64,000 nt of DNA from the NCBI RefSeq assembly GCF_041296385.1, contig NW_027184084.1, positions 992,001 to 1,056,000 of the forward strand. The letters run 5' to 3'. This DNA is from Aphelocoma coerulescens (lineage: Eukaryota; Chordata; Aves; Passeriformes; Corvidae). The number at the start of each line of letters is the position of its first letter. Positions within the stretch are counted from its first letter, which is position 1. Under the pieces are notes generated by a model, which saw nothing but the letters and a program-made list of their open reading frames with translations, was not told the DNA's origin and did not search any database. The translations under genes and the position numbers were made by a program. Positions 6,439-44,819 of the stretch are shown here, piece by piece.

Positions 6439-8085
6439 TTAGAGCAATTGTTGGCGGTCAACAAATAAAATGATAACCTTTTCTAAACGGCTTTTAACAA
6501 ACAACACCAATTTGTTTAATATGCAAGGCCCGAGAATCAACGTTAGGAGTATCATAGTTAGGGGGCCTATTAGAGTGGAAACAAGGGTGGTCAGCCATGG
6601 AGACTGGTTAAACCATGACTCGAACCATCCTTGTTGGGCTTCTCTTTCTCTTTTTCTCTGGGCTAGCCTTTCTCTTAGTTTGGTCATTGAGTCCCGTATG
6701 ACTCCGGTGTGGTCTGCATAAAAGCAGCATTCTTCTTTCAAGGCAGCACACAGGCCTCCTTGTTGCATGAGCAAGAGGTCCAGTCCTCGCCTGTTCTGCA
6801 GGACAACTTCTGAGAGCGAGGAGACAGATTTCTCTAGAAAGGAGATGGATTTTTCAATTCTTTGTAAGTCCTCGTCAATAGTTATCTGCAGCTGAGAAAG
6901 TCCCTGGTGTTGGGTCACGAGGGCGGAAACACCTGTGTCCGTGCCAGTGGCTCCAAGGCCGAGCAGCATTGCGATGGTTATGCCTGTTATTGCTTCTCTC
7001 TTGTGGAGCCGGCTAGGTTCTTCAAAAAGGTGGTACACTTCTTCTTCTTGGTGATACAGGACTCTAGGAACAATTAAAACTTGGACACAAAAATCAGCAG
7101 AGTTATCGAATTTATCAAGAAGCAAGCAGGGGCTTACTCCGGATTGCTGGCAGACAAACATTCCTGACGCAGATGGGATCACCCACTTATTGGTCGTTTT
7201 GTCAAGCTTGATAAATTTAGTACAGACATTGCCTATTCGTTTTGCTAAGACTGCATTGCCAAAGCACTTGCCTTGGCCTGTGACCTGACTCAGAGTAACT
7301 CCTCTCTGGGGGGTGATCATGGTTGGGTCCGTGCCCATTAGCCGCTGTAGGCTGGAGCTGTGTAGCTGATGGTCTGCCCCAGTTACTACGGCTAGTTGCT
7401 TTGCGCAATTGTCTTCCCACTCTTGTTTGAAACCGATCATCCCCGTCCCATCAAAAATTAATCTGCAGGTTTGTTTAATGTCAAATGGGAGCATGTCGTC
7501 CCCTCCAAAAAGGCTGTCGATGAGGGTGGAAACCATAGCCGAATTAATCCCTCTGTCTGCAATTGCTTTAACAATTGCTTGTATATCTTTAGGATTTATC
7601 GGTGAGTAAATCCTCTGGTTTCCGCCTTGCCCTCCTACTTGGACCGGGAATGCTAGCGTGGCTGATGGGGCCCAGTCGGCGCATGCTATTTTTATTTTCC
7701 TCCAGTCTGTAAGCAGAGTACGTTCTTTTTCTAACTTCCCCTTGGCCCAAGTAGGAGCGCAGTGGTTATTGCTTTTATCTACTCTCACTTCATCCTTGTC
7801 GGAGTCCGTTATGGACCACTCGTCAAGCCACTCGCTCCAGCTAGAGTCTGACTCGGAGCCGGAAGTCGACTGACTGGATACTTCCGGGCTCCGGAGCTTT
7901 TTTGTCAGGCTCCTACCCCGCCCCTTTCTCTTAGGGTTGGGCCGCTCCTTCCCCCTAGGCTCACCCCGCCTCCTGCTAAGGGAGGCTCTTGCTTTATAAG
8001 GGCATGTTTCAGGGCAAGCGCTCTGATTGGCCTTGATTCCCACTCCGGGATTCCCCCCCCCTTTTCCATTCACGTGCGTCTGCAT
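6439..8085 (-). CDS. Gag capsid-Env fusion reading frame
   Basis: One uninterrupted frame of 548 codons. Residues about 1-120 are basic and Ser-rich Gag linker. About 120-265 match a retroviral capsid N-terminal domain (AFPVQ, a DIQAIVKAIADRG helix block, a GFKQEWEDNCAKQLA block). From about 270 the frame passes into the C-terminal part of a gammaretroviral-type surface subunit, then transmembrane subunit: basic processing-like site RLHKR, fusion peptide region (AITGITIAMLLGLGA), heptad helix, the LQNRRGLDLL block, CX6CC (about 6724-6753), and a membrane anchor near residues 500-525 followed by a short tail. There is no signal peptide, so the encoded protein would not enter the secretory route as normal Env does. 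The fusion is the junction left by loss of pol and most of SU. The Met at 8085 may not be the true start. Confidence 0.75.
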   Translation of the reverse strand: MQTHVNGKGGGNPGVGIKANQSACPETCPYKARASLSRRRGEPRGKERPNPKRKGRGRSLTKKLRSPEVSSQSTSGSESDSSWSEWLDEWSITDSDKDEVRVDKSNNHCAPTWAKGKLEKERTLLTDWRKIKIACADWAPSATLAFPVQVGGQGGNQRIYSPINPKDIQAIVKAIADRGINSAMVSTLIDSLFGGDDMLPFDIKQTCRLIFDGTGMIGFKQEWEDNCAKQLAVVTGADHQLHSSSLQRLMGTDPTMITPQRGVTLSQVTGQGKCFGNAVLAKRIGNVCTKFIKLDKTTNKWVIPSASGMFVCQQSGVSPCLLLDKFDNSADFCVQVLIVPRVLYHQEEEVYHLFEEPSRLHKREAITGITIAMLLGLGATGTDTGVSALVTQHQGLSQLQITIDEDLQRIEKSISFLEKSVSSLSEVVLQNRRGLDLLLMQQGGLCAALKEECCFYADHTGVIRDSMTKLRERLAQRKREREAQQGWFESWFNQSPWLTTLVSTLIGPLTMILLTLILGPCILNKLVLFVKSRLEKVIILFVDRQQLL

Positions 8086-14297: not shown

Positions 14298-15163
14298 ATG
14301 GGTAACGGCATGTCTGCCCAAGAAAGAGACATATTTGAACTCATGACTAAATTATTAGATAAGCATGGCAAACTTTTGTCTTCACATGACCTAAAAGTCA
14401 TGCTGAAATGGACAGAGGCCAAGCTGCCTGGCGTTACCCCATCTACAACTTTTACTAAAGAACTGTGGGATGAAGTGGGAGTCAAGTTATGGAATTGTGC
14501 GACAAAAGGGGATAAGGCAGTTGCAAATATGCTTCTCTCCTGGAGAGGGATTTATGAGACTATGACGGCTCAGGAGGCATCCCATGCAGAGGTTAAAGAG
14601 AATATATCTGGCTCTCCCTCTGCAGAGGATCCAGGAAGCTTGATACAATCCAAGGGCGATGCACCTCCTCCTGTACAGCCCTCGACCCCCCTCTTGTGGG
14701 AAAGCCAAGGGGGGGGGGGGGGTTTCTTGTGATCTGTAAGGGCATTTGCCGCAGGGTACTACCCTGATGATAGCGTGGAGGAGCAAGAAGACCCCTTTGA
14801 TCCTGGACCTATTGACCCTGAGAGGGAACTGGACCTTTATCCCCCTGATCCCCATGACAATTGGGCTTGTTTGAAACAGGAGGCGTTGAAAGAGGGGGAA
14901 CTGGACATTGCGGAGAAAATTGTGGCACCTGTCCTATATCAGGGCAAAAACCAACTGAATCTGCAATGGGAGCCAATGTCTTTTTTGATAATTAAAGAGC
15001 TCCATCGGACCGTAACAGAGCATGGTCTAAGCTTTCCATACTTCGCGAGTTTGCTGTCTTCTGTGTTTAATGCTTATGTTATGACCCCACATGATTTAAA
15101 GTCACTTGCTCAGCTTTTGCTAACTCCCAAGCAATACTCTCTGTGGGAAACTGAGTGGCGGAA
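14298..15163 (+). pseudogene. gag: ERV-M gag, N-terminal part
   Basis: Starts Met-Gly at 14298, the expected myristoylated matrix. The matrix domain runs about 90 residues (AQERDIFELMTKLL through LWNCATKGDKAV), then an acidic, proline-containing linker. A run of 14 G (14709-14722) throws the frame, which recovers from about 14775. The capsid N-terminal half (LQWEPMSFLIIKELH, MTPHDLKSLAQLLLTPKQYSLWE) follows and is cut at 15163 by the cold-shock-domain retroelement. Beyond that insert the frame leads within about 20 codons into the zinc knuckles, so most of the capsid C-terminal domain had been lost. Confidence 0.8.
15158..15163 (+). repeat. Target duplication, left
   Basis: GCGGAA, repeated at 17358-17363 on the far side of the cold-shock-domain element. 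Six bases is the usual size for class II and alpharetroviral integrases. Confidence 0.85.
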
Positions 15164-15436
15164 TGTTGCAGTGGGGATACTGCAACACGCCTATATCAAA
15201 CCAGGAGTCCCGTGGAAAAGAAATATATACGGACGGATTCTTGCTAGATGTTTCAGAGATGTTTATTTCCCCAGCCGCATGGCCGGGCTCTGCTCAGGGA
15301 CTCTTACAGTCGGGGCCCGAGCTGCTTTGCCCGCGCAGGGGAACACAAACCAACCAATGGGGAACGAGGCTGACCAGGGGCAGGGAAACCCCGTGCCTCC
15401 CTCAGGGCTACATGGCGCGGGGGAGGGACCCCAACA
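15164..15436 (-). mobile_element. 3' LTR of the cold-shock-domain element
   Basis: 273 bp, flanked on its outer side by GCGGAA. The minus-strand AATAAA is at about 15265-15271. The preceding internal sequence (15437-15460, minus strand) is A/G-rich and could prime plus-strand synthesis, but it is not a classic long polypurine tract. Confidence 0.88.
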
Positions 15437-15653
15437 TCTCACCCATTTTATTTTAATAAAAGGAGAATGAAGACAATTGGATAAACATAACAAGAACAGT
15501 TTCAAAACAAAACAAGCCACCCTCCTGAGTCTTTAAATGTCCAAACAAATTCTGTGGAATATCTCAGGGCTGACAGAAGGGAGACAGAACTCTCTGGACA
15601 TGCCTGTGGGGAAACTGAGGCAGGAGAGGGTTTAATTTCTTTCCTCCCCCTTT

Positions 15654-16958
15654 TCATCCCCCCATCGGCATCGGAAAGGGATTTTTGGGGGAACAATTGG
15701 CAAAGGCAGGGGTTTGTGAGGGAAACCATGGATGAAAAAACAGATTGGGAATACACTGGGGGTAATAGGACATAGGGTAAAAGGGAAAGGTGGGATTAGG
15801 AAAGGGAGACTGTAGGGGGGGGTTACAATGGAGATATTGTCTAACATGACTATGATTTTTTGCATATATACTGCCTTTTACAGGAACACCATCAGGCCCA
15901 GTGACCTGCGACGCTTGTAACCCTTTTCTATCATGTATGATTTTGAATTCCACCACCTCTCCATCTCCCAAGCTTGGGATGCATTTTTCAGGGTTATTCT
16001 TTTTAATAGCAGTTCTATGCACGAATATGTCTTGCTGGTAATCACATCTTGTTATAAAACCATAATTTTGTTTAACATTATACCATTTCACTGTCCCTAA
16101 GATCTTAGCTACTATGGTCTTTTCCTTTTTCCGAGTGGCTGCTGTTTTCTGTCTCGCTGTGTCTTTGCTCTCTCTTTCGGTCGCTCCCGTGTTGGAACTA
16201 TCGGCGCGCTTTTCCCAGGGTCGCGTTTGGGGCCGCGCGGGCCGGGCCAGGCCGCGCCGCTCCGTTCTCCGTGCGTCGCCTCCTCTGGTCGCAGCTGCGT
16301 TGCCGCTGCCAGGCGCTGCATCTCGGCCAGGCCCCCGAGTGATGGCCCCCCCGTGCCCAGCTCCAGCGCGCGTTTCGGCTGGGCACGGCTCCACTCTGCC
16401 ACCGCCGCCAGCCGCCGCCCGTGCGCCGCCCCTCTCGTTCGGGCGCTCACGGGGCTCGCTCCACCACGCGCTGCGCGGGGCCGGGCGGGCACTGCCGGGT
16501 CCCGCCGCTCCTGCCGCGCCTCGCTCCGCCACCGACACTGCGGCTCGCGTGGCTCCGCCCGCGCACGGGAACTGCCTCGCTGCTGCTCGGAGAGCGCTCG
16601 GTGCACGTGGCCTGGGTCGCACGGTCCCTGAGCCAGGCTTCCCTTCACCAGGACATAGCTGACATTGCTCAACAGTCTCGGTTATTAAATAATATTCACG
16701 AAAATATTCTTCCATCGGCATATATTTTGACTCAAATATTAACTGGGTCCAAACGGTCTTCCAAAAGCTCTTGGTAAGAATTAGATCCCAAGAAACATAG
16801 AAAAAGTTCTTAAACAACCATGCCAGGAAGTGTTTCAGTTCTTTCTGAGCTTGAATCAAGCTAAAATTTACAAATCGTTGTTCAAGAATCATTTTAAGTT
16901 TAAGATAAATGTCCATATGCGACTCTGAAAGCCAAGAGTCTTCCCACGGTTCCTCCAT
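15654..16958 (-). CDS. Gag matrix-cold-shock-domain fusion protein (Y-box type)
   Basis: An intact 434-codon frame and the only gene of the element. Residues 1 to about 98 resemble the matrix N-terminus of class II Gags in this window (aligned block KHFLAWLFKNFF and SFWKTVW). Residues about 99-275 are Ala/Arg/Gly/Pro-rich and encoded by a very GC-rich, CpG-rich stretch (16190-16640). Residues about 280-362 form a full cold-shock domain: KILGTVKWYNV (about 16106), RNP1-like NYGFI (about 16060), RNP2-like DIFVH (about 16025), and the GDGEVVEF and TGPDGVPVKGS blocks (about 15880). The family is that of vertebrate Y-box proteins, which bind mRNA and single-stranded nucleic acid. The host gene's introns are absent, so capture was from RNA. 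A Pro/Phe/Tyr-rich tail replaces the usual basic-aromatic repeats. Which YBX paralogue was the source is unclear. Confidence 0.82.
   Translation of the reverse strand: MEEPWEDSWLSESHMDIYLKLKMILEQRFVNFSLIQAQKELKHFLAWLFKNFFYVSWDLILTKSFWKTVWTQLIFESKYMPMEEYFREYYLITETVEQCQLCPGEGKPGSGTVRPRPRAPSALRAAARQFPCAGGATRAAVSVAERGAAGAAGPGSARPAPRSAWWSEPRERPNERGGARAAAGGGGRVEPCPAETRAGAGHGGAITRGPGRDAAPGSGNAAATRGGDARRTERRGLARPARPQTRPWEKRADSSNTGATERESKDTARQKTAATRKKEKTIVAKILGTVKWYNVKQNYGFITRCDYQQDIFVHRTAIKKNNPEKCIPSLGDGEVVEFKIIHDRKGLQASQVTGPDGVPVKGSIYAKNHSHVRQYLHCNPPLQSPFPNPTFPFYPMSYYPQCIPNLFFHPWFPSQTPAFANCSPKNPFPMPMGG
16190..16640 (-). other. GC-rich, CpG-dense insert within the fusion gene
   Basis: Base composition changes sharply from the AT-rich flanking viral sequence to a CpG-island-like block. 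It looks like 5' untranslated plus first-exon sequence of the captured host transcript, translated here through the viral frame. Long frames on the opposite strand across this block come from the composition and show no domain. Confidence 0.6.
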
Positions 16959-17059
16959 AGTTTAGATATGGAATAGCAAAACAAAACCAAGAAGAGGAAT
17001 CCAAAGTTTCTAGAGTTTACTCACACAAATCAGTTGCTTAGGGATCGGGGATCGTTCTG

Positions 17060-17077
17060 CTCACAATTCTCCCACCA
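17060..17077 (-). promoter_or_regulatory. Candidate primer binding site
   Basis: Minus-strand TGGTGGGAGAATTGTGAG, three bases after the LTR end. It begins TGG as primer sites do, but I cannot assign the tRNA. Confidence 0.45.
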
Positions 17078-17080
17078 TTA

Positions 17081-17357
17081 TGTTGCAGCGGGGATACTGC
17101 AACACGCATATATCAAACCAGGAGTCCCATGGAAAAGAAACAAATATATACGGACGGATTCTTGCTAGATGTTTCAGAGATGTTTATTTCTCCAGCCGCA
17201 TGGCCGGGCTCTGCTCAGGGACTCTTACAGTCGGGGCCCGAGCTGCTTTGCCCGCGCAGGGGAACACAAACCAACCAATGGGGAACGAGGCTGACCAGGG
17301 GCAGGGAAACCCCGTGCCTCCCTCAGGGCTACATGGCGCGGGGGAGGGACTCCAACA
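17081..17357 (-). mobile_element. 5' LTR of the cold-shock-domain element
   Basis: 277 bp, minus-strand TGTTGGAGTCCC to CCGCTGCAACA. A minus-strand AATAAA lies at about 17186-17191. It differs from 15164-15436 at five positions plus a CAAA-like 4-base insertion near 17140. Confidence 0.88.
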
Positions 17358-17363
17358 GCGGAA
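17358..17363 (+). repeat. Target duplication, right
   Basis: GCGGAA, the partner of 15158-15163. Confidence 0.85.
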
Positions 17364-17752: not shown

Positions 17753-18318
17753 TGTCCTGGGTTGCAGTGTATTCTTTTACCATCCTCATGAGCTGTTGAA
17801 ATCAGGTGGGGCAGTGTTTCCTTGCCTCCTCCCCTCAGACTATCTTTCTGTTAATGGCCCATCATTGTCCTGCCTCATGACTCAGAGATAACTCCCTCGG
17901 ACTATCTTCTGTTAATGAGCCTAATCAACACTTGGCCTCATGACTCATTACCCCATTGTGAGATGCTCCACCCAGAGGGAGGAACCAAGCATCCCATTCT
18001 GGATATAGTCTGGGACTCTGAACACCAGAGACAACCCTTTTCCACTGGATTTCCAGAGGACAGGAGCTACACAGCCACCGCTGGACTTTCTGAGGAAGAG
18101 CAGACCCCTTTACTACAGGATCACTGCTTCAGAGGACTGCAGCCACCATTCTACCAGACTGCTACCACCACCCTGCCTAACAGGGACTCAGGTTGTATCT
18201 TGACTCTGTCAGTGTGAACCAGTGTTTTCTTTTACTTTCTTTTTTCCTTTTCTTTAATTTCCATTAAATTGTTATTCTGACTTGGTGCCTCTCACTGGTT
18301 TGTTTCTAAACTAGCACA
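17753..18318 (+). mobile_element. ERV-L (plus) 5' LTR
   Basis: 566 bp, TGTCCTGGGTTGCAG to CTAGCACA, over 95 per cent like 23968-24537 by eye. No canonical AATAAA is evident. ATTAAA near 18263 in a T-rich setting may be the polyadenylation signal. Confidence 0.85.
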
Positions 18319-18323
18319 TAATT

Positions 18324-18341
18324 TGGGGCCCAATGTGGGGC
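18324..18341 (+). promoter_or_regulatory. ERV-L (plus) primer binding site, tRNA-Lys1,2-like
   Basis: TGGGGCCCAATGTGGGGC, five bases after the LTR. It differs at two positions from the tRNA-Lys1,2 complement. Note that mammalian ERV-L elements classically use tRNA-Leu. Confidence 0.6.
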
Positions 18342-18396
18342 TGGCTCTGAGAAAAAGTCAGAATTACAATTTTGTATAAACAGAAACCTATTCACC

Positions 18397-19263
18397 ATGG
18401 TGCTCAGCTTGTCTACATGGGTACTGTATCTTGCTCTCTATATTTTTCCTCACATGGGGAACTACCTGCCTGTTGTGCTACTCCTGTTAAAACCAGGGAA
18501 TGGTATGAGAATTGCTTTATTGGTTTATTATGTCTATAGCATAATAACCTGCAAGGCGATGAATACCATTCGGAATGTATACTCAGTTTTGTTTGGCTGT
18601 CCTATTCTGGGCTCCTATGTCTGGGATCTCTTCAACAATCACACCCAGCCCCTGGTGGGAGGAGTAGAGAGTGGTTTCTTCCAGCCTTTCACGCCAGGCA
18701 CAGCAGTTTTTGAAAATATTGAGTTCCCTCTGGGTGTTAAGGACGGTATAAACTTCTTGTCAGTTCTATTCTCTTTTTTCTCTATGGCCTGCATTGTGTA
18801 CACCATGCTTAGAAACAGAACGCTACTTAGTGTGGTGCAACGTCTGCTTGAGGAGGAGGTAAAAAGGAGCAAAGCAGCAAATACCATGTCTACACAGACT
18901 GACACACAGAAAGGAACCAAAAGCAAAGCAACCCCATCCATCTCTACGCAGACTGTCACAGAGGAGAAAGAAACCAAATGCAAAGCAAGAGTGTCCATGT
19001 CTACACAGACTGTCACAGAGGAGAAAAGAACCAAAAGCACTGTCAGCGTCCCCATGCAAACCATCACTGAACCAGAACAGCCCAAACCGATTGCAGCTGC
19101 CCCCGTGCAGAAGAAGAAATCAAAAAGCAAATCAGTCCGCATAGTGACTGACGAGGATGAAGCAGGACCTTCGCACCCAGCAGAAGAGGCAGAGCCAGAG
19201 ATCATCACTCGGTCACTATCCCTGGGTGAGTTGCATGACCTGCGGAGGGAAATCACGCGCTAG
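18397..19263 (+). CDS. gag: ERV-L gag N-terminal membrane/linker part
   Basis: A 288-codon frame from an ATG 55 bases past the primer site to a TAG at 19261-19263. Residues about 1-65 contain two hydrophobic spans (VLYLALYIF..., VVLLLLKP...IALLVYYVYSII), and about 120-140 a third (FLSVLFSFFSMACIVYTML). Then comes a hydrophilic region with a repeated STQTVTEEK-like unit (four versions, about residues 158-222), a Lys-rich stretch and an acidic segment ending in RSLSLGELHDLRRE. The capsid part continues in the same frame after the TAG, so 18397-20202 is one gag with a single nonsense codon (CAG to TAG is the simplest change). A membrane-spanning Gag N-terminus is unusual. The minus-strand copy has the same design. 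Confidence 0.75.
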   Translation: MVLSLSTWVLYLALYIFPHMGNYLPVVLLLLKPGNGMRIALLVYYVYSIITCKAMNTIRNVYSVLFGCPILGSYVWDLFNNHTQPLVGGVESGFFQPFTPGTAVFENIEFPLGVKDGINFLSVLFSFFSMACIVYTMLRNRTLLSVVQRLLEEEVKRSKAANTMSTQTDTQKGTKSKATPSISTQTVTEEKETKCKARVSMSTQTVTEEKRTKSTVSVPMQTITEPEQPKPIAAAPVQKKKSKSKSVRIVTDEDEAGPSHPAEEAEPEIITRSLSLGELHDLRREITR

Positions 19264-20202
19264 ATGAACGAGTCTATCCTGACCTGGCTGCTCCACATCT
19301 GGGACGCTGCAGCCAATGACACCATTCTGGACGGAAGTGAGGCCAGGCAGCTGGGATCTCTGTCCCGGGATGTGGTCATTGACCAGGGGATCGGGAGAAC
19401 CCAAGAAACTCTCAGCCTCTGGCGGCGACTGCTTACAAGTGTCAGGGACAGGTACCTTTGTAAAGAAGACCTCCAGGTGCACCAAGGGAAATGGAGCACA
19501 ATGGAACAAGGTATCCGGTGCCTGAGGGAATTGGCTGTGCTGGAGATCATTTTCTCAGAAGACGAGAGATTTCCTAAGAGCCCAGATGGTGTCCAGTGCA
19601 CGTCACAGATGTGGTTGAGGTTCGCACACCTTGGACCAGAGATATACTCCCGTTACCTGGCAACGCTGCAATGGAGGGAAGGCAAGGACAGGGTGGGCGT
19701 CTTGGTGAACAAGCTGAGGATTTACGAGGACACCGTCGCAGCCCCGTTTCGCACCCATGTCTCATCCATGGAAACAAGTCTTTCGGCTGAGCAAGTCCAG
19801 AGCTTGATTGAAGAAGGCCATCAGAAACTGAAAAAGGAACTTAAGGAAGAGATTTACCACATCTTGCCAGAACCAACAAGAGTCTCTGCCATTAGGAGTC
19901 GGCGTCCCCCAACCGGGGAGAGGGGATACACCCCACGAGGTAATCTCTGGTTTTTCCTTCAGGAACATGGAGAAGACATGAGTAAGTGGCATGGAAAACC
20001 CACCTCCTCCTTAGCGGCCAGGGTACGTGAACTAAAAAGAGGGACAACTACCACAAGAAGCGCATCTAGAGTCAACGCTGCTCCGGTGTCTTGTGCACAG
20101 AACTCCAAACGGTATAGGAATGATAGTATGACTGATCCTCTTGAAGGGACCTCAGGAATGTATTCACCGGAAGGGAGCAACATGCACCATGACCAGGAAT
20201 AG
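19264..20202 (+). CDS. gag: ERV-L gag capsid and C-terminal part
   Basis: The in-frame continuation of 18397-19263. It is a 312-codon frame with a capsid-like helical domain (LHIWDAAANDTILDG, CLRELAVLEIIF, MWLRFAHLGPEIYSRYLATL, about residues 8-140), a coiled-coil-prone Glu/Lys/Leu segment (LSAEQVQSLIEEGHQKLKK), and a C-terminal block with ERGYTPRGNLWFFL. I see no CCHC zinc knuckle; basic stretches near the C-terminus may bind RNA instead. Reading is intact from the nonsense codon to 20202. Confidence 0.75.
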   Translation: MNESILTWLLHIWDAAANDTILDGSEARQLGSLSRDVVIDQGIGRTQETLSLWRRLLTSVRDRYLCKEDLQVHQGKWSTMEQGIRCLRELAVLEIIFSEDERFPKSPDGVQCTSQMWLRFAHLGPEIYSRYLATLQWREGKDRVGVLVNKLRIYEDTVAAPFRTHVSSMETSLSAEQVQSLIEEGHQKLKKELKEEIYHILPEPTRVSAIRSRRPPTGERGYTPRGNLWFFLQEHGEDMSKWHGKPTSSLAARVRELKRGTTTTRSASRVNAAPVSCAQNSKRYRNDSMTDPLEGTSGMYSPEGSNMHHDQE

Positions 20203-20811
20203 AGGGGCCCTACCTCTAGCCAGGTAGAGGAAAGGGATAATCGGGTCTTTTGGACTGTGTGGGTCCGATGGCCTGGCACATCTGACCCACAAAAATACAC
20301 GGCTTTGGTTGACACTGGAGCTCAATGTACTCTGGTGCCATCAAGGTATGTGGGAACAGAACCCATTTCTATTTCTGGGGTGACAGGAGGATCCCAGCAG
20401 CTGACTGTACTAGAAGCTGAAGTGAGTTTAACTGGGAATGAGTGGCAGAAACACCGCATCGTGACTGGCCTGGAGGCCCCGTGCATTCTCGGCATAGACT
20501 ATCTCAGAAATGGATATTTCAAGGACCCAAAAGGACATCGTTGGGCTTTTGGGATAGCTGCTGTGGAGACAGAAGATATCAGACAACTGAGTACATTGCC
20601 TGGCCTCTCAGATGACCCGTCTGCCGTGGGACTGCTAAGAGTTGAAGAACAACAGGTACCAATCGCCACAGCAACAGTGCACCGTCGGCAATACCGCACC
20701 GACAGAGACTCTGTGGTTCCCATCCATGAGATGATTCGCAAGTTGGAGAGCCAAGGGGTGGTCAGCAAGGCCCATTCACCTTTCAACAGCCCTATATGGC
20801 CAGTGTGTAAG
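20203..20811 (+). pseudogene. pol: ERV-L (plus) protease and RT start
   Basis: Open frame with the aspartic protease active site DTGAQCTLVP (about 20310) and the usual LGIDYL near 20490, then the RT N-terminus (VVPIHEMIRKLESQGVVSKAHSPFNSPIWPV). The frame is cut at 20811 by a solo LTR and resumes at 21244. It lies in another frame than gag and would be reached by translational recoding or a separate start. The junction shows no clear slippery heptamer. Confidence 0.78.
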
Positions 20812-21243
20812 TGTTGGAAGCCGCGCGGGAGACGGAGCCTGGATCCCCGGCAGGGGGAGAAAAACAGAAGCCAAACCAATATGGTTGAAAAATACACTCC
20901 AATTTATTAGCAGTCTAAAGGCACTTATATAGTATACCAGCTTGTTAGCTCCTAAGTGGCTTAACGATTATCAAGACACATTTCTATTTCTACATAATTG
21001 GACTACATTGGCAGTTTTCCACAGTCTTGTTATGATCAAAAGAATTTTGTGCTTGCCTTCCTGTATACTCCTAGATATCACACCTGCAAGTTCGTTACTC
21101 CCTGAAATTTCTCAGGCTGAAACTGTTTAGTTTCACACAGGGACTTTCCCACGGAAAATGTCTCTCATACACAAGCCTAAAAACCTCCAGCTCAATAGCT
21201 TGCACAGTCCTTTTATTGATCCCAATAATTCAATTCTCCAACA
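20812..21243 (-). mobile_element. Solo LTR inside ERV-L RT
   Basis: 432 bp, TGTTGGAAGCC to CTCCAACA on the plus strand, flanked by TGTAAG (20806-20811) and CGTAAG (21244-21249), a 6-bp duplication with one change. AATAAA on the minus strand (about 20901-20906) sets the orientation. No internal viral genes remain, so it formed by LTR-LTR recombination. Confidence 0.82.
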
Positions 21244-22640
21244 CGTAAGTCCAGCAGAGAATGGAGACTGACAGTGGACTACTGTGGCCTGAATGAGGTG
21301 ACTCTACCATTGAGTGCCGCTGTGCTGGACATGTTGGAGCTCCAGAATGAGCTAGAGTCCAAAGCAGCGAAGTGGTACTCCACTATTGACATTGCCAATG
21401 CCTTTTCTCCATTCCTTTAGCAGCAGAATGCAGGCCCCAGTTTGCTTTCACCTGGAAGAGTGTGCAGTACACCTGGATCCGACTGCACCAGGGGTGGAAG
21501 CACAGTACCACCATTTGCCATGGACTGATCCAGACTGCATTGGAAAAGGGTGAGGCTCCAGGACATCTGCAATACATCGATGACATCATCCTGTGAGGAA
21601 ACACAGCAAAGGAAGTATTTGAGGAAAGGAGAGAAAATCACCCAGATTCTCCTGGAAGCTGGCTTTGCCATCAAAAGGAGCAAAGTCAAGGGACCTGCCC
21701 AAGAGATCCAGTTCCTGGGAGTAAAGTGGCAAGAAGGACGACGTCAGATTCTCACCGAGGTCATCAATAAGATAACTGCGATGTCTCCACCGACCAGCAA
21801 GAAGGAAACACAAGCTTTCCTAGGCGCCATAGGTTTTTGGAGAATGCACATTCTCGAGTACCGCCACATCGTGAGCCCTCTCTACCTGGTTACCCGCAAG
21901 AAGAACGATTTCCACGGGGGCCCCAAACAGCAGCAAGCCTTCGCCCAGATCAAGCAGGAAATGGCTCATGCAGTAGCCCTTGGCCCAGTCAGGACAGGAC
22001 CAGAGGTGAAGAACATGCTCTACTCTGCAGCCGGGAACAAGGGTCTGTCCTGGAGCCTCTGGCAGAAGATGCCTGGTGAGACTCGTGGCCGACCACTGGG
22101 ATTCTGGAGCCGAAGCTACAGAGGGTTTGAAGCCAACTACACTCCCACAGAGAAGGAAATCTTGGCAGCCTACGAAGGAGTCCAAGCTGCCTCAGAAGTA
22201 ATCGGCACTGAAGCACAACTCCTCCTGGCACCCCGACTACCGGTGCTGGGTTGGATGTTCAAGGGAAAGGTTCCTTCCACGCATCACGCCACCGACACCA
22301 CATGAAGCACATGGATTGCTCTCATCACACAGCATGCCCGTATTGGAAACCCTAATCGCCTTGGGATTCTAGAAATTATAACAAACTGGCCTGAAGGTGA
22401 GACTTTTGGATTATCTTCTGAAGAAGAGGAAGAGCAAGTGACTCGTGCTGAGGAAGCCCCACCATATAATGAGCTACCGGAGACTGAAAGACGTTATGCC
22501 CTCTTCACTGATGGTTCCTGCCGAATTGTAGGCGCTAACCGGAAGTGGAAAGCTCCAGTATGGAGCCCCCCCAGGATGAGTTGCACAAGCTACTGAGGGA
22601 CAAGGTGGATCGAGTCAGGTTGCAGAGCTTAAAGCCCTCC
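21244..22640 (+). pseudogene. pol: ERV-L (plus) RT and RNase H start
   Basis: RT resumes after the solo LTR with NEVTLPLSAAVLDM, loses a base near 21405 (frame change before the FTWK block), and keeps the catalytic YIDDI at about 21573-21587. A stop (TGA near 21595) is followed by the open stretch 21550-22305 covering thumb and connection (QAFLGAIGFWRMHI, WSRSYRGFEANYTPTEKEILAAYEGVQ). RNase H begins near 22500 (LFTDGSC). Several single-base breaks make it non-functional. Confidence 0.75.
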
Positions 22641-23092
22641 AGCTGGCTTTGGATATTGCTGAACGAGAGAAGGGGCCGAGGCTCTATCTCTACACCGACT
22701 CGTGGATGGTAGCTAATGCTCTGTGGGGACAGCTGATTCGCTGGAGAAAAGCCAACTGGCAGCGCAGAGGGAAACCCATCTGGGCCACTGAAATTTGGCA
22801 GGACATCGCCGCCCGAGTAGAGAAGCTGACCATGAAGGTTCGACACGTGGATTCACACGTACTCAAAAGTCGGGCCAATGAAGAACATCGCAAAAACAAG
22901 CAGGTGGACCGAGCTGCCAAGGTGAAAGTATCACAGGTGGATCTGGACTGGCAGCACAAGGGAGAATTATTCCTAGCTCGTTGGGCCCATGATGCCTCTG
23001 GTCATCAGGGGAGAGATGCAACATACCAATGGGCCCGTGACCGAGGGGTGGACCTTACCATGGACAGCATCTCACAGGTCATCCACAGCTGA
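22641..23092 (+). pseudogene. pol: ERV-L (plus) RNase H end and integrase N-terminus
   Basis: Open frame with the second half of RNase H (LYLYTDSWMVANALWG, VRHVDSHVLKS) and the start of integrase (HDASGHQGRDATYQWARDRGVDL, a histidine-containing zinc-binding N-terminal domain). It ends with TGA at 23090-23092, before the cysteine pair of the zinc site (ETC..C). Confidence 0.72.
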
Positions 23093-23836
23093 GAGACCTG
23101 TGCTGCAATCAAACAGGCCAACAGGTGAAGCCTCTGTGGTACAGTGGATGATGGTCAAAGTACAGCTATGGGGAAGCCTGGCAAGTTGATTACATCACCC
23201 TTCCCCAAACCCGCCAAGGCAAGCGCTACGTGCTGACCATGGTTGAAGCAACCACTGGATGGCTGGAGACCTACCCTGTGCCTCATGCTACAGCCCGGAA
23301 CACCATCTTGGGCCTGGAAAAGCAAGTCCTGTGGAGACATGGCACCCCTGACACGATCGAGTCAGACAACGGGACTCATTTTAAGAACAGCCTCATCAAC
23401 ACCTGGGCCAGAGAACACGGTATCGAATGGATATATCACATTCCTTATCATGCACCAGCTGCCGGAAAAGTTGAACGCTGCAATGGACTACTTAAAACCA
23501 CCCTAAAGGCACTTGGTGGGGGGGACCTTCAAAAATTGGGAAGTGAACTTAGCGAAGGCCACCTGGATGGTCAATACCCGAGGGTCCATCAATCGAGCTG
23601 GTCCCGCCAAGTCTGAACCCTTGCACACAGTGGATGGAGATAGAGTCCCTGTGGTACACCTGAGAGGTATTTTAGGAAAGACTGTTTGGATTAATCCCAC
23701 CTCAGGCAAAGGCAAACCCATCCGTGGGATTGTCTTTGCTCAAGGACCTGGTTGCACTTGGTGGGTAATGCAGAAAGATAGAGAAACTCGTTGTGTACCA
23801 CAAGGAGACCTAATCTTAGGTGAGAATTGTGTGTAG
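23093..23836 (+). pseudogene. pol: ERV-L (plus) integrase core and C-terminus
   Basis: Integrase core in two overlapping frames. At 23230-23616 the TMVEATTGW strand, SDNGTHF (second catalytic Asp, about 23365) and GKVERCNGLLK (catalytic Glu, about 23468) are present. A G-run near 23516-23522 throws the frame, and the C-terminal domain continues in 23513-23836 (PVVHLRG...GCTWWVMQKD). The first catalytic Asp region (about 23180) lies in a third frame. Confidence 0.72.
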
Positions 23837-23848
23837 GGTTTCATTGTA

Positions 23849-23856
23849 TATATATG

Positions 23857-23892
<36 letters not shown>

Positions 23893-23897
23893 TGTAT
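23849..23897. repeat. TA microsatellite
   Basis: Alternating TA interrupted by TG steps, just after the ERV-L integrase stop and upstream of the 3' LTR. It is ordinary slippage-prone simple sequence. Confidence 0.9.
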
Positions 23898-23967
23898 GTG
23901 CATTTAGAGTTTAAGGAAGGTATTGATTTGGGATGATGTAGATGGTGATAGAATAAGGGGTGGATAA

Positions 23968-24537
23968 TGTCCTGGGTTGTAGTGTATTCTATTACCATCC
24001 TCATGAGCCTCATGTTGAAATCAGGTGGGGCAGTGTTTCCTTGCCTCCTCCCCCCAGACTATCTTTCTGTTAATGGCCCATCATTGTCCTGCTGCAGGAC
24101 TCAGAGATAACTCCCTCTGGACTATCTTCTGTTAATGAGCCTAATCAACACTTGGCCTCATGACTCATTACCCCATTGTGAGGTGTTCCACCCAGAGGGA
24201 GGAACCAAGCATCCCATCGTGGATATAATCTGGGACTCTGAACACCAGAGACAACCCTTTTCCACTGGATTTCCAGAGGACAGGAGTTACACAGCCACCA
24301 CTGGACTTTCTGAGGAAGAGCAGACCCCTTTTCTACAGGATCACTGCTTCAGAGGACTGCAGCCACCATTCTACCAGACTTCTACCACCACCCTCCCTAA
24401 CAGGGACTCAGGTTGTATCTTGACTCTGTCAGTTTGAACCAGTGTTTTCTTTTACTTTTTTTTTCCTTTTCTTTAATTTCCATTAAATTGTTATTCTGAC
24501 TTGGTGCCTCCCACTGGTTTGTTTTCAAACTAGTACA
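23968..24537 (+). mobile_element. ERV-L (plus) 3' LTR
   Basis: 570 bp, the partner of 17753-18318. The largest visible differences are a 9-base segment near 24003 and several single changes. No env precedes it. Confidence 0.85.
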
Positions 24538-27854: not shown

Positions 27855-28455
27855 TGTGGGAGTGTGTTAGCTTAGTTCAGTCCGGGTCTCCCCCCTATGT
27901 TCTGTAAGTTTGGTGTACCCCAGTTGGCACCCCCCCTGTTTTATTTAAATCACCCTGTCTGTCATTTTTATCTCCTCCCAGGACCCTGTCTGTCACTCTG
28001 CCACCCCTCCCAGGCTTCTGGAAAGTTCTAGCCAGGGGGCCAGGTGATTAGTCCTGGGAAAGGAGTCCCTCCCTTCCCCTGTTATAGTTGGTTCCCTTAT
28101 GTGTCCCTCGTTCTGCTTGCCGCACCCTTCCCTTCCCTTGTTGGTTGTTCTGTACACCCCCCCCATGCCCCCCCCCGCCATAAAATGCCCTGGCTCGCGA
28201 TCTGCAGGTGCTCTGGGTTGGGCACCCCTGGTGGTTGAGGTCCCCCCGTTCGGAGGACCAATAAACTTTCTGGATTTAACCCAACTCTGAGCCTGCCCCC
28301 TTTCCTCCGCAGTCTGCCTTTATTGCCGCGGTCCCTTGGAAGGACCCACGAGCCAGACCTCCGATCCCTCCGATATCAGAGGCTGGCCCCCGTTGCCTGC
28401 TGTGTCCCGAGCTGACCGGGCTGAGTGGGAACTGTTCCCAGAAGACACAACAGCA
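27855..28455 (+). mobile_element. ERV-Y 5' LTR
   Basis: 601 bp, TGTGGGAGTGTG to AACAGCA. CCATAAAATGCC near 28180 may act as the TATA box, and AATAAA lies at about 28260-28265. Confidence 0.92.
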
Positions 28456-28458
28456 ATT

Positions 28459-28476
28459 TGGCGCCCAATGTGGGGC
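28459..28476 (+). promoter_or_regulatory. ERV-Y primer binding site, tRNA-Lys1,2
   Basis: TGGCGCCCAATGTGGGGC, three bases after the LTR. One mismatch from the tRNA-Lys1,2 complement used by several betaretroviruses. Confidence 0.8.
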
Positions 28477-28995
28477 TGCCGTTCCATCGGACCGCAAAGA
28501 CAGTGTGGCGCCCGAGCATGGGGTTCCTCGTTCTATCGGACCCCCACGGAAGGGGCGTCCTCGGCATAGGCAGCTTGGCGCCCGGGCGTGGGGCCCCGCT
28601 TCCCTCAGACCCCACGGAAGGGACTGATTGTTTCGGCAAGTGCGTCCTCGGGACGTCAAGCTACCCCAGCTGCAGCACGCTCCGTTTTAGTGAGCAGCGT
28701 TACTGGGGGTGAGAACGGTAGCTTCGCCCGCGCTGCGAAGTCGTTCTTGGTGGAGGAATCGAACGCCTGGAGCATGCCTGGACGCCAGTCAGGTAAGTAT
28801 TTTTCCCGGGGGGGGGAAAACTTGCCTCAAAGCCGGTAAAGGCTTTTCTTTCGGACCAGTAAGGTCCCCGGCTCTCGAAGAGCCGAACGGAGGCTGCTCA
28901 GCCCCGGAGCAAGCGCGGTTCGCTTGTCTCCGGTTGGGTTTTGGGAGACCGGCGTTCTAGGCTTTAATCCAGCTCCAGACGCTGTGCTGTTGGCT

Positions 28996-30849
28996 ATGGG
29001 CGTCGGACTGTCCACAGTGCAGAAGGAGGCATTTCTCCAAGTTGCGGGACTCCTTCAGGGTGGGGGGATAAGTTTTTCAAAGGGATGTTTAAAACGGTTT
29101 ATTCGGTGGCTGTTTCTGCACTTCCCTCAGTGCTCTCAGAGTTCGGTTTTGACCGTTCCCTTCTGGAACGCCGTGAGAGAGACACTAGCGCGATCGAATT
29201 CTGCCAAAGAGAAAGATTTCTCTTTTCTGTATTTGCAGATTCGATCGGCGTTAGCTAAAAAAAGGGAGAGGGAAGGACGAACAGCCCCGAATTCCCCAGT
29301 TGTTACCCCTAACCCGTCTCCCGAACCCGTGTCCCCTCAAACGGGCATCCTGAGGAGAGCAACCCGTGATACGCAGGGCTGCTACCGTCTCCCTGGCTCT
29401 CCTCGGGGTTCTCGGAGTCCCCGCTCGGACAGTCCCGGCCAGACTGCCCGAGGCTTATCCCGTTCCCCAGCTTCCCCAGTTATCAGACCCCGAGTTCGGT
29501 TTAGTGATCCAGACAGTTTAGAAAATGCCCTCCCTGCCCGAGAAGGACAAGATGGAGGGCGCCAAGTGGAAGGGACCCCCTCTTGCCTTCCCCCCCGCTT
29601 TTCCACCCGAAATCCCTTTCTCCCGAGTCCCAACCCCTTTTGCCCCGACCCCTCCTACTCCCAAGTTGGATCCACCCCTCTTACCCCTCCTACCTGCCCC
29701 CAGTGCACGCCCCCGTGCTCCGCCCCCAGAAATCGCGGGTCCATGCCCGGCTGCCACCCACTTCCTGCTTCCGGTTCTCACGCCTGTTCTTCCGGTTCCC
29801 ACGGTGTCTGGCCGGAAGGGGGTTGGCCGGAGGACTGGAACCCGGAACTGCATCCCATTCCCTCCGCCTCTCCGGTTTATTATCAGAGGTCCCGGAGAGG
29901 AGGAACAACCCATGTCAGCTGGGAACCCCTCTCACACCAAACAATAAAGGAACTCTGCAAAGCGCAGAAGGAGTTTGGGAGAGAAAACAGATATATCCGT
30001 GGCCTTTTAAAAGCAAATCTCTCCGGAGCAGTAATGACACCTTTCGATCTGCGTCAGCTTTTCTCATGCCTGCTTTCCTCAGCAGAGTTTCTGCTCTGGA
30101 AGGCAGCGTGGGAAAGGGAGCTCCGCAGGCTCCTTCCAGCGCTCTTGCAAGGTTCTGATACGGCCGTTGATGCCGACAATGAGGCACTTACATTGGACCA
30201 TCTGAGCGGCGAAGGGGATTGGGCTCTGGCACCAAAGCAGGCTCAAGGCTTGCCTTTGGAGGTTCTGCAACAGATCAAGGAAGCGGCCAGTAAGGCATTC
30301 CTTGGTCTGAGGCTTGATATGCCCATAGAATCTTACTCGCAAGTCCGGCAGGAACCCACTGAGTCATTCCTGAAGTTTGTGGAAAGACTAACCCGAGCTG
30401 TAGAGTTGCAGGTTAAGCAGCCGGCAGCCAGGGAAGAGGTCATTGCAGAGATGGCCATGGTGAATGCCAACCCTCAGTGCAAGGCAGCCATCCTGAGCCT
30501 CCCCCTGGACCCCCCGCTGACCATACAGACCATGTTAGAAGTTTGTGCTGCGAAGGCACCACACCTGCATCCTGCCAGCTCGGACAGACAGTGGCCCAGA
30601 GGAATGGCCTCAGTGGGAACAGCAATGCATCGCTCTGCAGCGGACCAGAGGAGGACTACGGGCCTGAACACCAAACCACCTCCAACCATGAACAGCCACA
30701 GGCGAACCCCGCAGGCCAGGAGCACCTGCTTCCTATGTGACCAGCCTGGACATTGGACAAGGGACTGCCCGCTCAAGTGGCAGTTCCAGCGATTTAAAAA
30801 AGAACATGAACCTGGGGGACAGGAGGGCCAACTCCAACAAAAAAACTGA
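28996..30849 (+). CDS. gag: ERV-Y gag polyprotein
   Basis: An intact 617-codon frame. The frame is open from 28924, but I choose the Met at 28996 because it gives Met-Gly (MGVGLSTVQ), the myristoylation context. Matrix covers residues 1 to about 95 (CLKRFIRWLFLHFPQ, VPFWNAVRETLA). A long Ser/Pro/Arg-rich linker (about 95-310) holds late-domain-like proline runs. Capsid runs from about 315 to 560 (WEPLSHQTIKELCKAQKEFG, MTPFDLRQLFSCLLSSAEFLLWK, and the major homology region ESYSQVRQEPTESFLKFVERL). One CCHC zinc knuckle, CFLCDQPGHWTRDC, sits at about 30726-30767. Many betaretroviral Gags carry two knuckles. The frame ends at TGA 30847-30849, overlapping the frameshift signal. Confidence 0.9.
   Translation: MGVGLSTVQKEAFLQVAGLLQGGGISFSKGCLKRFIRWLFLHFPQCSQSSVLTVPFWNAVRETLARSNSAKEKDFSFLYLQIRSALAKKREREGRTAPNSPVVTPNPSPEPVSPQTGILRRATRDTQGCYRLPGSPRGSRSPRSDSPGQTARGLSRSPASPVIRPRVRFSDPDSLENALPAREGQDGGRQVEGTPSCLPPRFSTRNPFLPSPNPFCPDPSYSQVGSTPLTPPTCPQCTPPCSAPRNRGSMPGCHPLPASGSHACSSGSHGVWPEGGWPEDWNPELHPIPSASPVYYQRSRRGGTTHVSWEPLSHQTIKELCKAQKEFGRENRYIRGLLKANLSGAVMTPFDLRQLFSCLLSSAEFLLWKAAWERELRRLLPALLQGSDTAVDADNEALTLDHLSGEGDWALAPKQAQGLPLEVLQQIKEAASKAFLGLRLDMPIESYSQVRQEPTESFLKFVERLTRAVELQVKQPAAREEVIAEMAMVNANPQCKAAILSLPLDPPLTIQTMLEVCAAKAPHLHPASSDRQWPRGMASVGTAMHRSAADQRRTTGLNTKPPPTMNSHRRTPQARSTCFLCDQPGHWTRDCPLKWQFQRFKKEHEPGGQEGQLQQKN
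30840..30846 (+). promoter_or_regulatory. gag-pro -1 frameshift signal AAAAAAC
   Basis: A canonical slippery heptamer in the zero frame A-AAA-AAC, immediately before the gag TGA. A -1 shift enters the pro-pol frame at 30846, which stays open to 32996. The GC-rich sequence just downstream (about 30853-30880) could form the stimulatory structure. Confidence 0.85.
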
Positions 30850-32996
30850 ATGGGGAGCGCGCGCCCGCCCCACGTGAAGACAAAAAAGGGACGGGACGCG
30901 AGGGGGAGGGGGAACTCAAAGAGGCAAAACTATCGGACGTGACTTTAAAACTGGATTTGACTTCTTTTTCTGATGGTTCTTTCAGGTTGCAGCTGTTGAC
31001 ACCGCTCCACCTAAGAACCAAAGAGTGGCATACCGCACCGGTAAGCACTGGTGGTGAGCTGTGGGCAGAAGACCAAGGCCCTGACAGGTATGTCATAGTC
31101 GGAAGTGTTACCTGCACACCACAAGAGATAGAAGTCGCTCCAGGACTAATGACATCTAGTCCCGAAGGACCTGTTCTCTGGCTGCGCTGTGTCCACCCAC
31201 CTCTGTTCCTGCCCAGAGGGCAGACAGTCGCCCAGGCTATCCCTGTGGAAAGGCCACACCCAACGGTGTGTGCCACACATGCAACAGGGACAGAGAAGCC
31301 TCGGGTAGGCTGCAAGGTCAACAGAGGGGAGGAAGTCCTGCACCTCAGAGGGCTTCTGGACACAGGGGGAGATGTGACGATCATTCCCACACGAGAATGG
31401 CCGGCACATTGGGAATTGCAAAACGTGGCTGGACACGTGCAAGGTGTTGGAGGCATTCAATTGGCCAAACAGTCAAAGAGCATCGTGCAAATCAAGGGAC
31501 CAAGCGGACAATTGGCAAACATACGTCCGTTCGTATTAGACTACAAGGAACCCCTCTTGGGGAGAGACCTCATGCAGCAGTGGGGAGTCACAATTGACCT
31601 ACCTGACCCCCCGAAAAATTTTTGGGTTGCGGCCACTGAAGAGCGCCCTACTCAAAAACTAAATTGGAAAACTGATCACCCCATTTGGGTGGAGCAGTGG
31701 TCGCTCCATGGTGAGAAGTTGAAGGCGCTCGAGAAGCTCATGGAGGAGCAACTTAAAAAGGGGAATATCGTGGAATCCAACAGCCCCTGGAATTCCCCTG
31801 TCTTTGTTATCAAAAAGCCTAACAAAGACAAATGGCTGCTCCTCCAGGACCTTCGTCAAATTAACAATGCTATTGAGGACATGGGCTCTCTCCAACCAGG
31901 GATGCCATCCCCAACGATGCTCCCTCAAAATTGGAATCTGGCAGTAATTGACATTAAAGACTGCTTTTTCCAAATTCCCCTGCACCCTGACGATGCCCTG
32001 CGTTTTGCCTTCTCAATTCCTGTTATCAATCGAGAAGCCGCAAGGAAAAGATACCATTGGAAGGTGTTGCCACAGGGTATGAAGAACAGCCCGACCATCT
32101 GCCAATGGTATGTCTCTTCCTTGCTTGCCCCAGTTCGCGCAGCAGCAAAAGAGGCCATCATCTTCCATTATATGGATGATGTCCTTGTGTGTGCCCCCGA
32201 CAATGACATGCTTGCCAGTGTGCTCGACCTGACAATCAATGCATTGGTTGCTGCAGGGTTCGAGCTCCAAGAGGGAAAGATTCAACGGATGCCACCTTGG
32301 AAGTACCTGGGCCTGGAAATAACAAAGCGGACCATTGTGCCGCAAAAATTGGCTATTAATACCAACATCAAGACTCTGGCAGATGTCCACCAGCTGTGTG
32401 GGTCTTTAAATTGGGTGAGGCCGTGGCTGGGTCTGTCCAACGAAGACCTAGCCCCCCTTTTTGATTTACTAAAAGGGAGAGAGGAGCTTAGTTCCCCCCG
32501 GACACTCACCCCAGAGGCCCAAACAGCTCTGGAGAGGGTGCAACATCTAATGTCCACCAGGCAGGCAAGCAGGTATAGGCCTGACTTGCCATTCAAATTC
32601 ATCATCCTGGGTAATCTGCCACACTTGCACGGGGTTGTCTTCCAATGGGAAAACAACAAAAAGAAGAGCAAAAAGGACCAGGACCAGAGGGATCCCCTCT
32701 TAATCATAGAGTGGGTATTTCTCAGTCACCATCGGTCCAAGAGGATGACACAGCCACAAGAGCTGATGGCTGAACTGATCCGGAAGGCTAGGATCCAGAT
32801 CAGAGAGTTATCAGGATGTGACTTCGACTGCATCCACGTGCCAATTAGGACAAAAACAGGCCAAATTACTAAGGCAATGTTGGAGAGCCTGCTTCGAGAT
32901 TGTGAAGCATTACAGTTTGCTCTGGAGGGCTACACAGGCCAAATTTCCTTGCATAGGCCAGCCCACAAAATTTTCAATTCGGAAATTCAATTCTAA
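30846..32996 (+). CDS. pol: ERV-Y pro-pol: dUTPase-like region, protease, RT
   Basis: Open from the slippery site to a TAA at 32994-32996. The first part (about 30930-31260) ends with PRGQTVAQAIPV, a dUTPase-like strand without a recognisable full dUTPase. The protease active site is DTGGD (about 31359-31373, where DTGA is commoner), with GHVQGVGG flap and LLGRDL. RT follows in the same frame: [53 protein letters not shown], catalytic YMDD (about 32169-32180), then thumb and connection. The nonsense codon lies in the connection, and the downstream part is in the same frame. Confidence 0.88.
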   Translation: MNGERAPAPREDKKGTGREGEGELKEAKLSDVTLKLDLTSFSDGSFRLQLLTPLHLRTKEWHTAPVSTGGELWAEDQGPDRYVIVGSVTCTPQEIEVAPGLMTSSPEGPVLWLRCVHPPLFLPRGQTVAQAIPVERPHPTVCATHATGTEKPRVGCKVNRGEEVLHLRGLLDTGGDVTIIPTREWPAHWELQNVAGHVQGVGGIQLAKQSKSIVQIKGPSGQLANIRPFVLDYKEPLLGRDLMQQWGVTIDLPDPPKNFWVAATEERPTQKLNWKTDHPIWVEQWSLHGEKLKALEKLMEEQLKKGNIVESNSPWNSPVFVIKKPNKDKWLLLQDLRQINNAIEDMGSLQPGMPSPTMLPQNWNLAVIDIKDCFFQIPLHPDDALRFAFSIPVINREAARKRYHWKVLPQGMKNSPTICQWYVSSLLAPVRAAAKEAIIFHYMDDVLVCAPDNDMLASVLDLTINALVAAGFELQEGKIQRMPPWKYLGLEITKRTIVPQKLAINTNIKTLADVHQLCGSLNWVRPWLGLSNEDLAPLFDLLKGREELSSPRTLTPEAQTALERVQHLMSTRQASRYRPDLPFKFIILGNLPHLHGVVFQWENNKKKSKKDQDQRDPLLIIEWVFLSHHRSKRMTQPQELMAELIRKARIQIRELSGCDFDCIHVPIRTKTGQITKAMLESLLRDCEALQFALEGYTGQISLHRPAHKIFNSEIQF

Positions 32997-34310: not shown

Positions 34311-34532
34311 TCGTGTGCCTCTCTGACCCCTAAGCCCCAAGTTTATCCCAGTTGCTATCCCCAGTTTTAACCTTATTTTTCTAAGTTGTGTTTTAGTTTG
34401 GAGACACCGGAGATGACGTGGTTCGGGGACCTGTACCCAGACTCAGAGTACTGTCCCCAACCCGGATTCATGTCATCTTAAAAAAAAAAAAACAACAACA
34501 ACAAAAAAAAAAAAAAACAAAAAAGGAGGAGA
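34311..34532 (+). other. ERV-Y 3' untranslated region and polypurine tract
   Basis: A short non-coding stretch ending in an A-rich, C-spotted run (about 34481-34520) and the polypurine tract AAAAGGAGGAGA right before the LTR. It leaves no room for env. Confidence 0.75.
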
Positions 34533-35133
34533 TGTGGGAGTGTGTTTGTTTAGTTCAGTCCGGGTCTCCCCTCTATGTTCTGTAAGTTTGGTGTACCCCA
34601 GTTGGCACCCCCCCTGTTTTATTTAAATCACCCTGTCTGTCATTTTTATCTCCTCCCAGGACCCTGTCTGTCACTCTGCCACCCCTCCCAGGCTTCTGGA
34701 AAGTTCTAGCCAGGGGGCCAGGTGATTAGTCCTGGGAAAGGAGTCCCTCCCTTCCCCTGTTATAGTTGGTTCCCTTATGTGTCCCTCGTTCTGCTTGCCG
34801 CACCCTTCCCTTCCCTTGTTGGTTGTTCTGTACACCCCCCCCATGCCCCCCCCCGCCATAAAATGCCCTGGCTCGCGATCTGCAGGTGCTCTGGGTTGGG
34901 CACCCCTGGTGGTTGAGGTCCCCCCGTTCGGAGGACCAATAAACTTTCTGGATTTAACCCAACTCTGAGCCTGCCCCCTTTCCTCCGCAGTCTGCCTTTA
35001 TTGCCGCGGTCCCTTGGAAGGACCCACGAGCCAGACCTCCAATCCCTCCGATATCAGAGGCTGGCCCCCGTTGCCTGCTGTGTCCCGAGCTGACCGGGCT
35101 GAGTGGGAACTGTTCCCAGAAGACACAACAGCA
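34533..35133 (+). mobile_element. ERV-Y 3' LTR
   Basis: 601 bp. It differs from the 5' LTR at roughly 34547, 34549, 34572 and 35041 only. Followed by CCTCTG. Confidence 0.92.
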
Positions 35134-44398: not shown

Positions 44399-44819
44399 AG
44401 CTTCTCGGGCTATCCTGCCCCTTCTTCTACCACCCTCCCTTCAGGAACCATCTGCATCAAAATCATCCCATTCGCTTTTAATTGAAATTGGTTCATTGGT
44501 TTTAAAGATTGTTCCAGCTGAATGTTGATCAGGAACTGTCTCGCTCTTTGCGGCAGTGGAGGGGTCGGGAGGCAGGGGCTGCAAGCAGCTTCTCCCGTCC
44601 CTAGCTCTGCAAGAGCTGCCTGGCTCGGGGCCATCCTGTCTGCCCTCAGCTTTAACATTGGCCGTGCCGCAGGGTGGGGAGAGCGACTGGCTCCTCCTGT
44701 CTCTGGCTCGGGAACTTGCGGTTCTCTGTATTGAGGAATGCCGTCGCAATTGCCCGTGTCCATTTCTGCCTTCACTTCCGAATTCAGAGTATTCGGGGAA
44801 AGGTGGCCAGCCTGCCCTT

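Follow-up and report, generated by a model that had tools for sequence, protein, structure and literature searches.

How does a cold-shock domain (CSD) of the Y-box type come to lie in the only recognisable gene of a retroelement, and what might it do there? This question is raised by positions 15164..17357 of a 64,000-nucleotide stretch of the scrub-jay (Aphelocoma coerulescens) genome, contig NW_027184084.1, positions 992001-1056000, the whole of which we call the window. We found at this locus a complete long terminal repeat (LTR) element on the minus strand, consisting of a 5' LTR, a leader, a single open reading frame, a 3' stretch and a 3' LTR. Our preferred reading, to which we assign a probability of about 0.78, is that this is a class II (ERVK/betaretrovirus-like) non-autonomous element whose sole protein joins a matrix domain, a linker, a captured Y-box CSD and a tail, and whose history would include capture of the host sequence, mobilisation by a helper and action of the protein on the element's own RNA.

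Structure of the element and its fused reading frame

The single frame (15654..16958, minus strand, as are all element features given below) is intact over 434 amino acids, in agreement with the initial annotation. Its CSD (15852..16130) matches the Pfam CSD family with E=2.9e-20, and its best matches in the PDB are YB-1 and YBX2 (E about 2.5e-34). Y-box chains in the PDB score 100 to 121 bits and all others less than 48, which rules out a chance or bacterial cold-shock origin of the domain and disposes of the concern that segment 15880-16120 might align to Y-box domains no better than random sequence does. The element CSD is about 57-69% identical to that of YBX3 and is uninterrupted; at a YBX1-like locus of the same assembly (L091), the second half of the CSD is split into two separate pieces. 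The earlier claim of a full, intronless Y-box CSD is thereby borne out. Y-box CSDs bind RNA, and the W, F, F, H, K, Y and N that we take to be the RNA-contact residues are all retained in 81 of the 81 copies selected from the genome (see below).

While the element protein resembles YBX1, YBX2 and YBX3 in having a CSD with these residues, it differs from them in carrying a matrix at its N-terminus and in lacking Arg-rich C-terminal islands. Its tail (15657..15851) is Pro/Phe-rich, and does not have the Arg-rich C-terminus that marks the Y-box family. A query with the YBX3 C-terminus found three places among 30 candidates (two on contig C2 and one on C22), and no Arg-rich Y-box C-terminus in the elements. 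The parent of the CSD is certainly a member of the Y-box family; tree and residue comparisons do not single out YBX1, YBX2 or YBX3, and the proposed search for the parent gene thus succeeded for the family and not for the paralog.

The N-terminal part of the frame (16647..16958), which begins MEE and not MG, is a retroviral matrix-like domain. A six-frame comparison with the remaining window places its best match in the N-terminus of a gag frame (28924-30849), and does the same for the matrix of a type B copy, type B being one of two coding types described below. Profile-profile comparison gave probabilities of 96.4 and 96.5, and the predicted fold resembles the matrix of Rous sarcoma virus (RSV) and mouse mammary tumour virus (MMTV). 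The matrix assignment rests on these three observations because sequence searches of Pfam and the PDB came back empty: Pfam gave no match for the window piece and one weak match to a domain of unknown function across seven element matrices (E 0.013), and the PDB search with the matrix piece gave nothing credible (best E 0.41). The Gag matrix-like N-terminus of the initial annotation is supported on this basis. Together with the 6-bp target-site duplication described below, the predicted alpha/betaretroviral matrix fold points to class II/ERVK for the element, which carries no reverse transcriptase.

Between the matrix and the CSD lies an Ala/Gly/Arg-rich linker (16131..16646) with a GC content of 0.74 and a CpG observed/expected ratio of 1.05, compared with a median of 0.32 for 500-base window tiles, consistent with its earlier description as a CpG-island-like segment. 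The linker may come either from the Y-box mRNA or from a Gag linker. Elsewhere in the window, an Ala/Gly-rich frame without a Pfam match (44410-45639, minus strand) adjoins, by eye, the gag of another endogenous retrovirus (ERV), which suggests that such linkers can arise in Gag here without host capture.

The 3' LTR (15164..15436, 273 bp, TG...CA) and the 5' LTR (17081..17357, 277 bp) differ by five substitutions and one 4-base gap, and an exact 6-bp duplication, GCGGAA, stands at 15158..15163 and 17358..17363. Both features had been noted before, and the near-identical LTRs and exact duplication indicate that the pair stems from one insertion and not from two unrelated ones. Within the 5' LTR, AATAAA lies at LTR position 170 and an inverted CCAAT box at 79. 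With the rate used for crows, 0.0158 per site per million years (My; PMC7341801), the 5/273 LTR differences date this insertion to about 0.58 My ago. By eye, the host site is the gag region of another ERV, with frames at 14298-14732 and from 14775 onwards on the left and a zinc-knuckle-like stretch on the right. The 5' leader (16959..17080) contains a primer-binding-site-like stretch, TGGTGGGAGAATTGTGAG (17060..17077). At the same position, copies L006 and L090 carry a different sequence, TGGTGGAGAATGCGGGC, which resembles what we take to be the tRNA-Ala 3' end more closely than does the window copy. The 3' untranslated stretch of 217 bases (15437..15653) contains the 30-mer GGACATTTAAAGACTCAGGAGGGTGGCTTG and, adjoining the 3' LTR, a purine-rich tract that looks by eye like a polypurine tract (15437-15449).

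None of the frames of 60 or more amino acids between the LTRs was recognised by eye as pol or env, and a Pfam scan of the reading frame in three pieces returned only the CSD and one sub-threshold CSD-like match. These data support an intronless Y-box CSD captured as a Gag-matrix fusion in an element where neither pol nor env is recognisable, and the intact fused frame, Y-box CSD and predicted matrix fold uphold the proposal of a transduced host sequence.

Copy number and coding types

We counted patterns in the whole assembly (1,330,612,911 bases, 660 contigs), allowing up to three mismatches; the reversed control of each pattern gave zero. The 3' untranslated region (UTR) 30-mer GGACATTTAAAGACTCAGGAGGGTGGCTTG occurs 1,445 times, CSD 30-mers of types A and B occur 821 and 578 times, respectively, and an LTR core pattern occurs 3,720 times. 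The family therefore comprises about 1,400 CSD copies in this assembly. Further copies, for which the initial annotation had proposed a search, are abundant, and what it took for one defective provirus is a family; the lack of recognisable pol and env stands. That the CSD counts sum to nearly the 3' UTR count suggests, with the counts unpaired by place, that CSD-less internal regions are few. A cross-match by coordinates of the 70 exact 3' UTR places listed for contig C1 puts 28 or more of them beside a stop-free CSD match.

In the genome searches, no more than the 40 to 150 best places are scored. With a 93-residue type A CSD as the query there were 1,677 first-look candidates, the best 150 of which are 94-100% identical and stop-free in 149 cases. 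Type B was found using the CSD of crow protein P0133, and 146 of its best 150 places (of 1,665) are stop-free. We fetched 90 loci and removed nine repeats or apparent duplicates, leaving 81 copies (29 A and 52 B, by CSD). Starting from MEE, the frame stays open to the end of the CSD in 22 of 29 A copies and 29 of 52 B copies, and a stop or cut falls inside the CSD in three of the 81; intactness is overstated here because the loci were best protein matches. An exact 6-bp duplication was observed at 26 of 29 A places and 32 of 42 B places, and the LTR pair is free of substitutions in 6 of 28 A and 7 of 42 B copies. Median LTR ages are 0.56 My for A and 0.34 My for B (one B pair, at 471 bases, is overlong). 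The insertions are thus recent. Ten A copies stand head to tail at C4:114686476-114703938 in steps of 1,907-1,910 bases, and shorter runs with steps of about 1.93 kb occur on C35 and C384.

Comparison of the two types reveals that they can use one LTR/UTR chassis. B copies L051 and L057 are 96-97% identical to the window copy in the LTRs and 99% in the 3' UTR, but only 55% in the matrix, 47-48% in the linker and 69-70% in the CSD, while the LTRs of other B copies (L042, L090 and L033) are 85-87% identical to those of the window copy. Mosaics were also observed: the CSD of L051 is of B type and its tail end of A type, L035 has an A-type leader and matrix (94%) with a B-type CSD, and crow P0133 has an A-like matrix (87% to P0002) with a B CSD. 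Recombination between co-packaged RNAs would be the natural reading of these mosaics.

Ancestry, constraint and rival explanations

A CSD tree of 22 rows, including 13 element CSDs from jay and crow and six vertebrate Y-box CSDs, separated all 13 element CSDs by a branch from the six Y-box CSDs. Support for this branch was 86/89, below the usual 95, and the split by label recurred in 100% of 200 bootstrap trees, three ungrouped rows being uncounted. Groups A (100/99) and B (99/98) each contain jay and crow rows, from which we infer that both types are older than the split of these lineages. At the 77 columns invariant across YBX1, YBX2 and YBX3, A differs at 27, B at 22 and both at 17 (7.7 expected), and at ten of these columns A and B have the identical new residue. 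Two unnamed proteins with two tandem CSDs, P0008 and P0099, have the residues GFITR, GLQA or GLEA in common with the elements and fall outside the element group in this tree.

The ratio of nonsynonymous to synonymous substitution (dN/dS) on the CSD, a comparison that the initial annotation had proposed, is about 0.26 between A and B in the selected copies: 0.24-0.28 for four A-B pairs (bootstrap limits 0.09-0.50; dS 0.95-1.12) and 0.255 over all 1,421 pairs. The CSD is thus under constraint between the two types. For the matrix, A-B dN/dS is 0.17-0.22, with dS >2 and limits of 0.00 to 0.53.

These values bear on the possibility that the frame is a passenger, the element spreading by its LTRs and RNA signals with the CSD as useless cargo. 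Non-coding elements of such a kind are common, 30 of the 81 selected copies lack the full frame, and searches of the window found no helper. However, a CSD dN/dS of about 0.26 at a dS of about 1, retention of the presumed RNA-contact residues in every selected copy, and the closeness of the CSD counts to the 3' UTR count, unpaired by place as they are, make this unlikely. The same low ratio would mirror selection on host genes before capture if A and B had been captured separately from different Y-box genes, and there is some evidence of this kind, as DNA identity between the A and B CSDs is no more than about 70% and, of six paralog-variable sites, B agrees with YBX2 (PDB 7f3i) at four (two being YBX2-only) and A at one. 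Such a double origin is nevertheless improbable given the ten derived residues common to A and B and absent from YBX1, YBX2 and YBX3, the grouping of the element CSDs in the tree, and the shared domain order, related matrices (35-39 of 90-92 residues identical) and similar tails.

The protein might instead be mainly transcriptional, its CSD acting on the inverted CCAAT box of the LTR core. The CCAAT motif is the source of the Y-box protein name, and across A and B no 30-mers are better conserved than the LTR stretch with CATTGGTTGG (zero or one mismatch in eight copies) and the AATAAA-signal stretch, which does equally well. Since one motif is expected by chance (one found, shuffle mean 0.9), NF-Y is the main CCAAT-box binder and Y-box CSDs bind RNA, we give this role little credence. 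The least probable alternative is that the frame has been domesticated as a host gene at some loci and that copy number is incidental: several such frames do appear in public crow protein sets as uncharacterized proteins, but many young, similar, LTR-flanked copies point to mobility and not to one conserved locus, and the window copy itself lies, by eye, in the gag region of another ERV.

The preferred reading, capture followed by spread with a helper, would run as follows. A single template switch within a co-packaged particle, before the separation of the crow and scrub-jay lineages, would have joined a Y-box mRNA to a gag leader and matrix. Pol would then have been lost, and, as an element without pol requires mobilisation in trans, a helper retrovirus would mobilise it. 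The CSD of the protein would bind the element's own RNA and promote its stability, translation or packaging, replacing the lost nucleocapsid. That a constrained RNA-binding domain is fused to a matrix points to the RNA or ribonucleoprotein of the element as the likely target of the protein, and among roles we would rank packaging or protection of its own RNA first, with CCAAT-box binding as a weaker alternative. It is possible, though we put it forward tentatively, that the fusion is a self-serving nucleocapsid substitute of a satellite-like element that brings its own RNA into helper particles, its two ancient protein types being exchanged as modules between chassis and perhaps tracking changing helpers or host defences. 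CATC and CACC, presumably the RNA motifs of YB-1, are not enriched in the element. The element LTR and inner pieces had no match in the rest of the window, no genome-wide LTR-DNA search for a helper having been made, and against an ERV at 27855 the LTR and leader gave no more than chance-level matches. When the matrix part of P0002 served as a protein query, all that it found were matrix-CSD fusions (4 of 16 candidates).

The ERV just named (27855-35040) has terminal repeats; its gag frame is 641 aa long, and it contains two long pol frames. An ERV-like unit at 17794-24418 has an LTR-like repeat pair, 96-97% identical and 6.2 kb apart; neither of its first two frames, 18397-19263 (membrane-protein-like by eye) and 19264-20202, has a Pfam match. 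At 6439-8085 (minus strand), a pol-less 548-aa frame fuses Gag p24 (PF00607, E 2e-22) to Env (PF00429, E 3.5e-95).

Crow relatives and significance

In a protein search, 10 of 13 matches were uncharacterized New Caledonian crow proteins, one of them a cluster with 24 sequences, and this crow has close relatives of both CSD types. In the hooded crow, a 2.25-kb ERVK insertion of subfamily corCorLTRK1b upstream of NDP is tied to plumage (PMC7341801). Its length, its 296-bp LTRs and its estimated age of <0.534 My are close to the 2.19 kb, 273-277 bp and, at the same rate, about 0.58 My of the window copy. Crow primer P_R_F_1 matches the leader at 17042-17061 (20/20) and P_L_R_2 the tail at 15715-15734 (19/20, one mismatch); 100 shuffles gave no primer matches. 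If up to three mismatches are allowed, P_R_F_1 is present in all 29 A copies and in 21 of 52 B copies, and with up to two P_L_R_2 is present in 27 of 29 A; 12 of 52 B copies have both. Compared by primers, lengths and age, the NDP insertion very probably belongs to the matrix-CSD family, and an element with a full coding region would account for its length and primer positions. The name corCorLTRK1b occurs in one open-access paper, the main text of which does not use the term "open reading frame" and the consulted passages of which make no mention of coding content (PMC7341801). The statement that there is no described avian example must therefore be divided: the family is very probably already known under that name, while its gene goes unmentioned in those passages.

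Capture of host genes by retroviruses is usually rare and short-lived. Acute transducing retroviruses carry v-onc genes as Gag fusions, have lost pol and env and need a helper; the corvid element likewise has an intronless host sequence behind a Gag piece and no pol or env, but it has no oncogene and forms a deeply diverged germline family of about 1,400 copies, not a one-off recombinant. Judged by titles and the starts of abstracts, none of the open-access papers listed in our searches describes an LTR element with a gene of cold-shock or Y-box type. The nearest precedent found is in crocodilian ERVs, which captured KIT-ligand and nectin3 mRNA, with a frame reported to be under purifying selection (PMC4299795). 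Those captures, as described there, are of cell-surface or signalling proteins and kept other retroviral genes, with nectin3 replacing env and KIT-ligand costing no domain, whereas the corvid element, with about 1,400 copies, has no recognisable gene other than the fusion of matrix with an RNA-binding domain.

In this bird lineage, a captured RNA-binding domain now serves as the only protein of a young and abundant mobile element, and has been constrained over deep divergence. What a non-autonomous retroelement gains from a protein of its own becomes testable by comparison among corvids. Moreover, as a gene is now assigned to a family that very probably includes the hooded-crow plumage insertion, whether such insertions have a coding or trans effect, beside one in cis, becomes a question.
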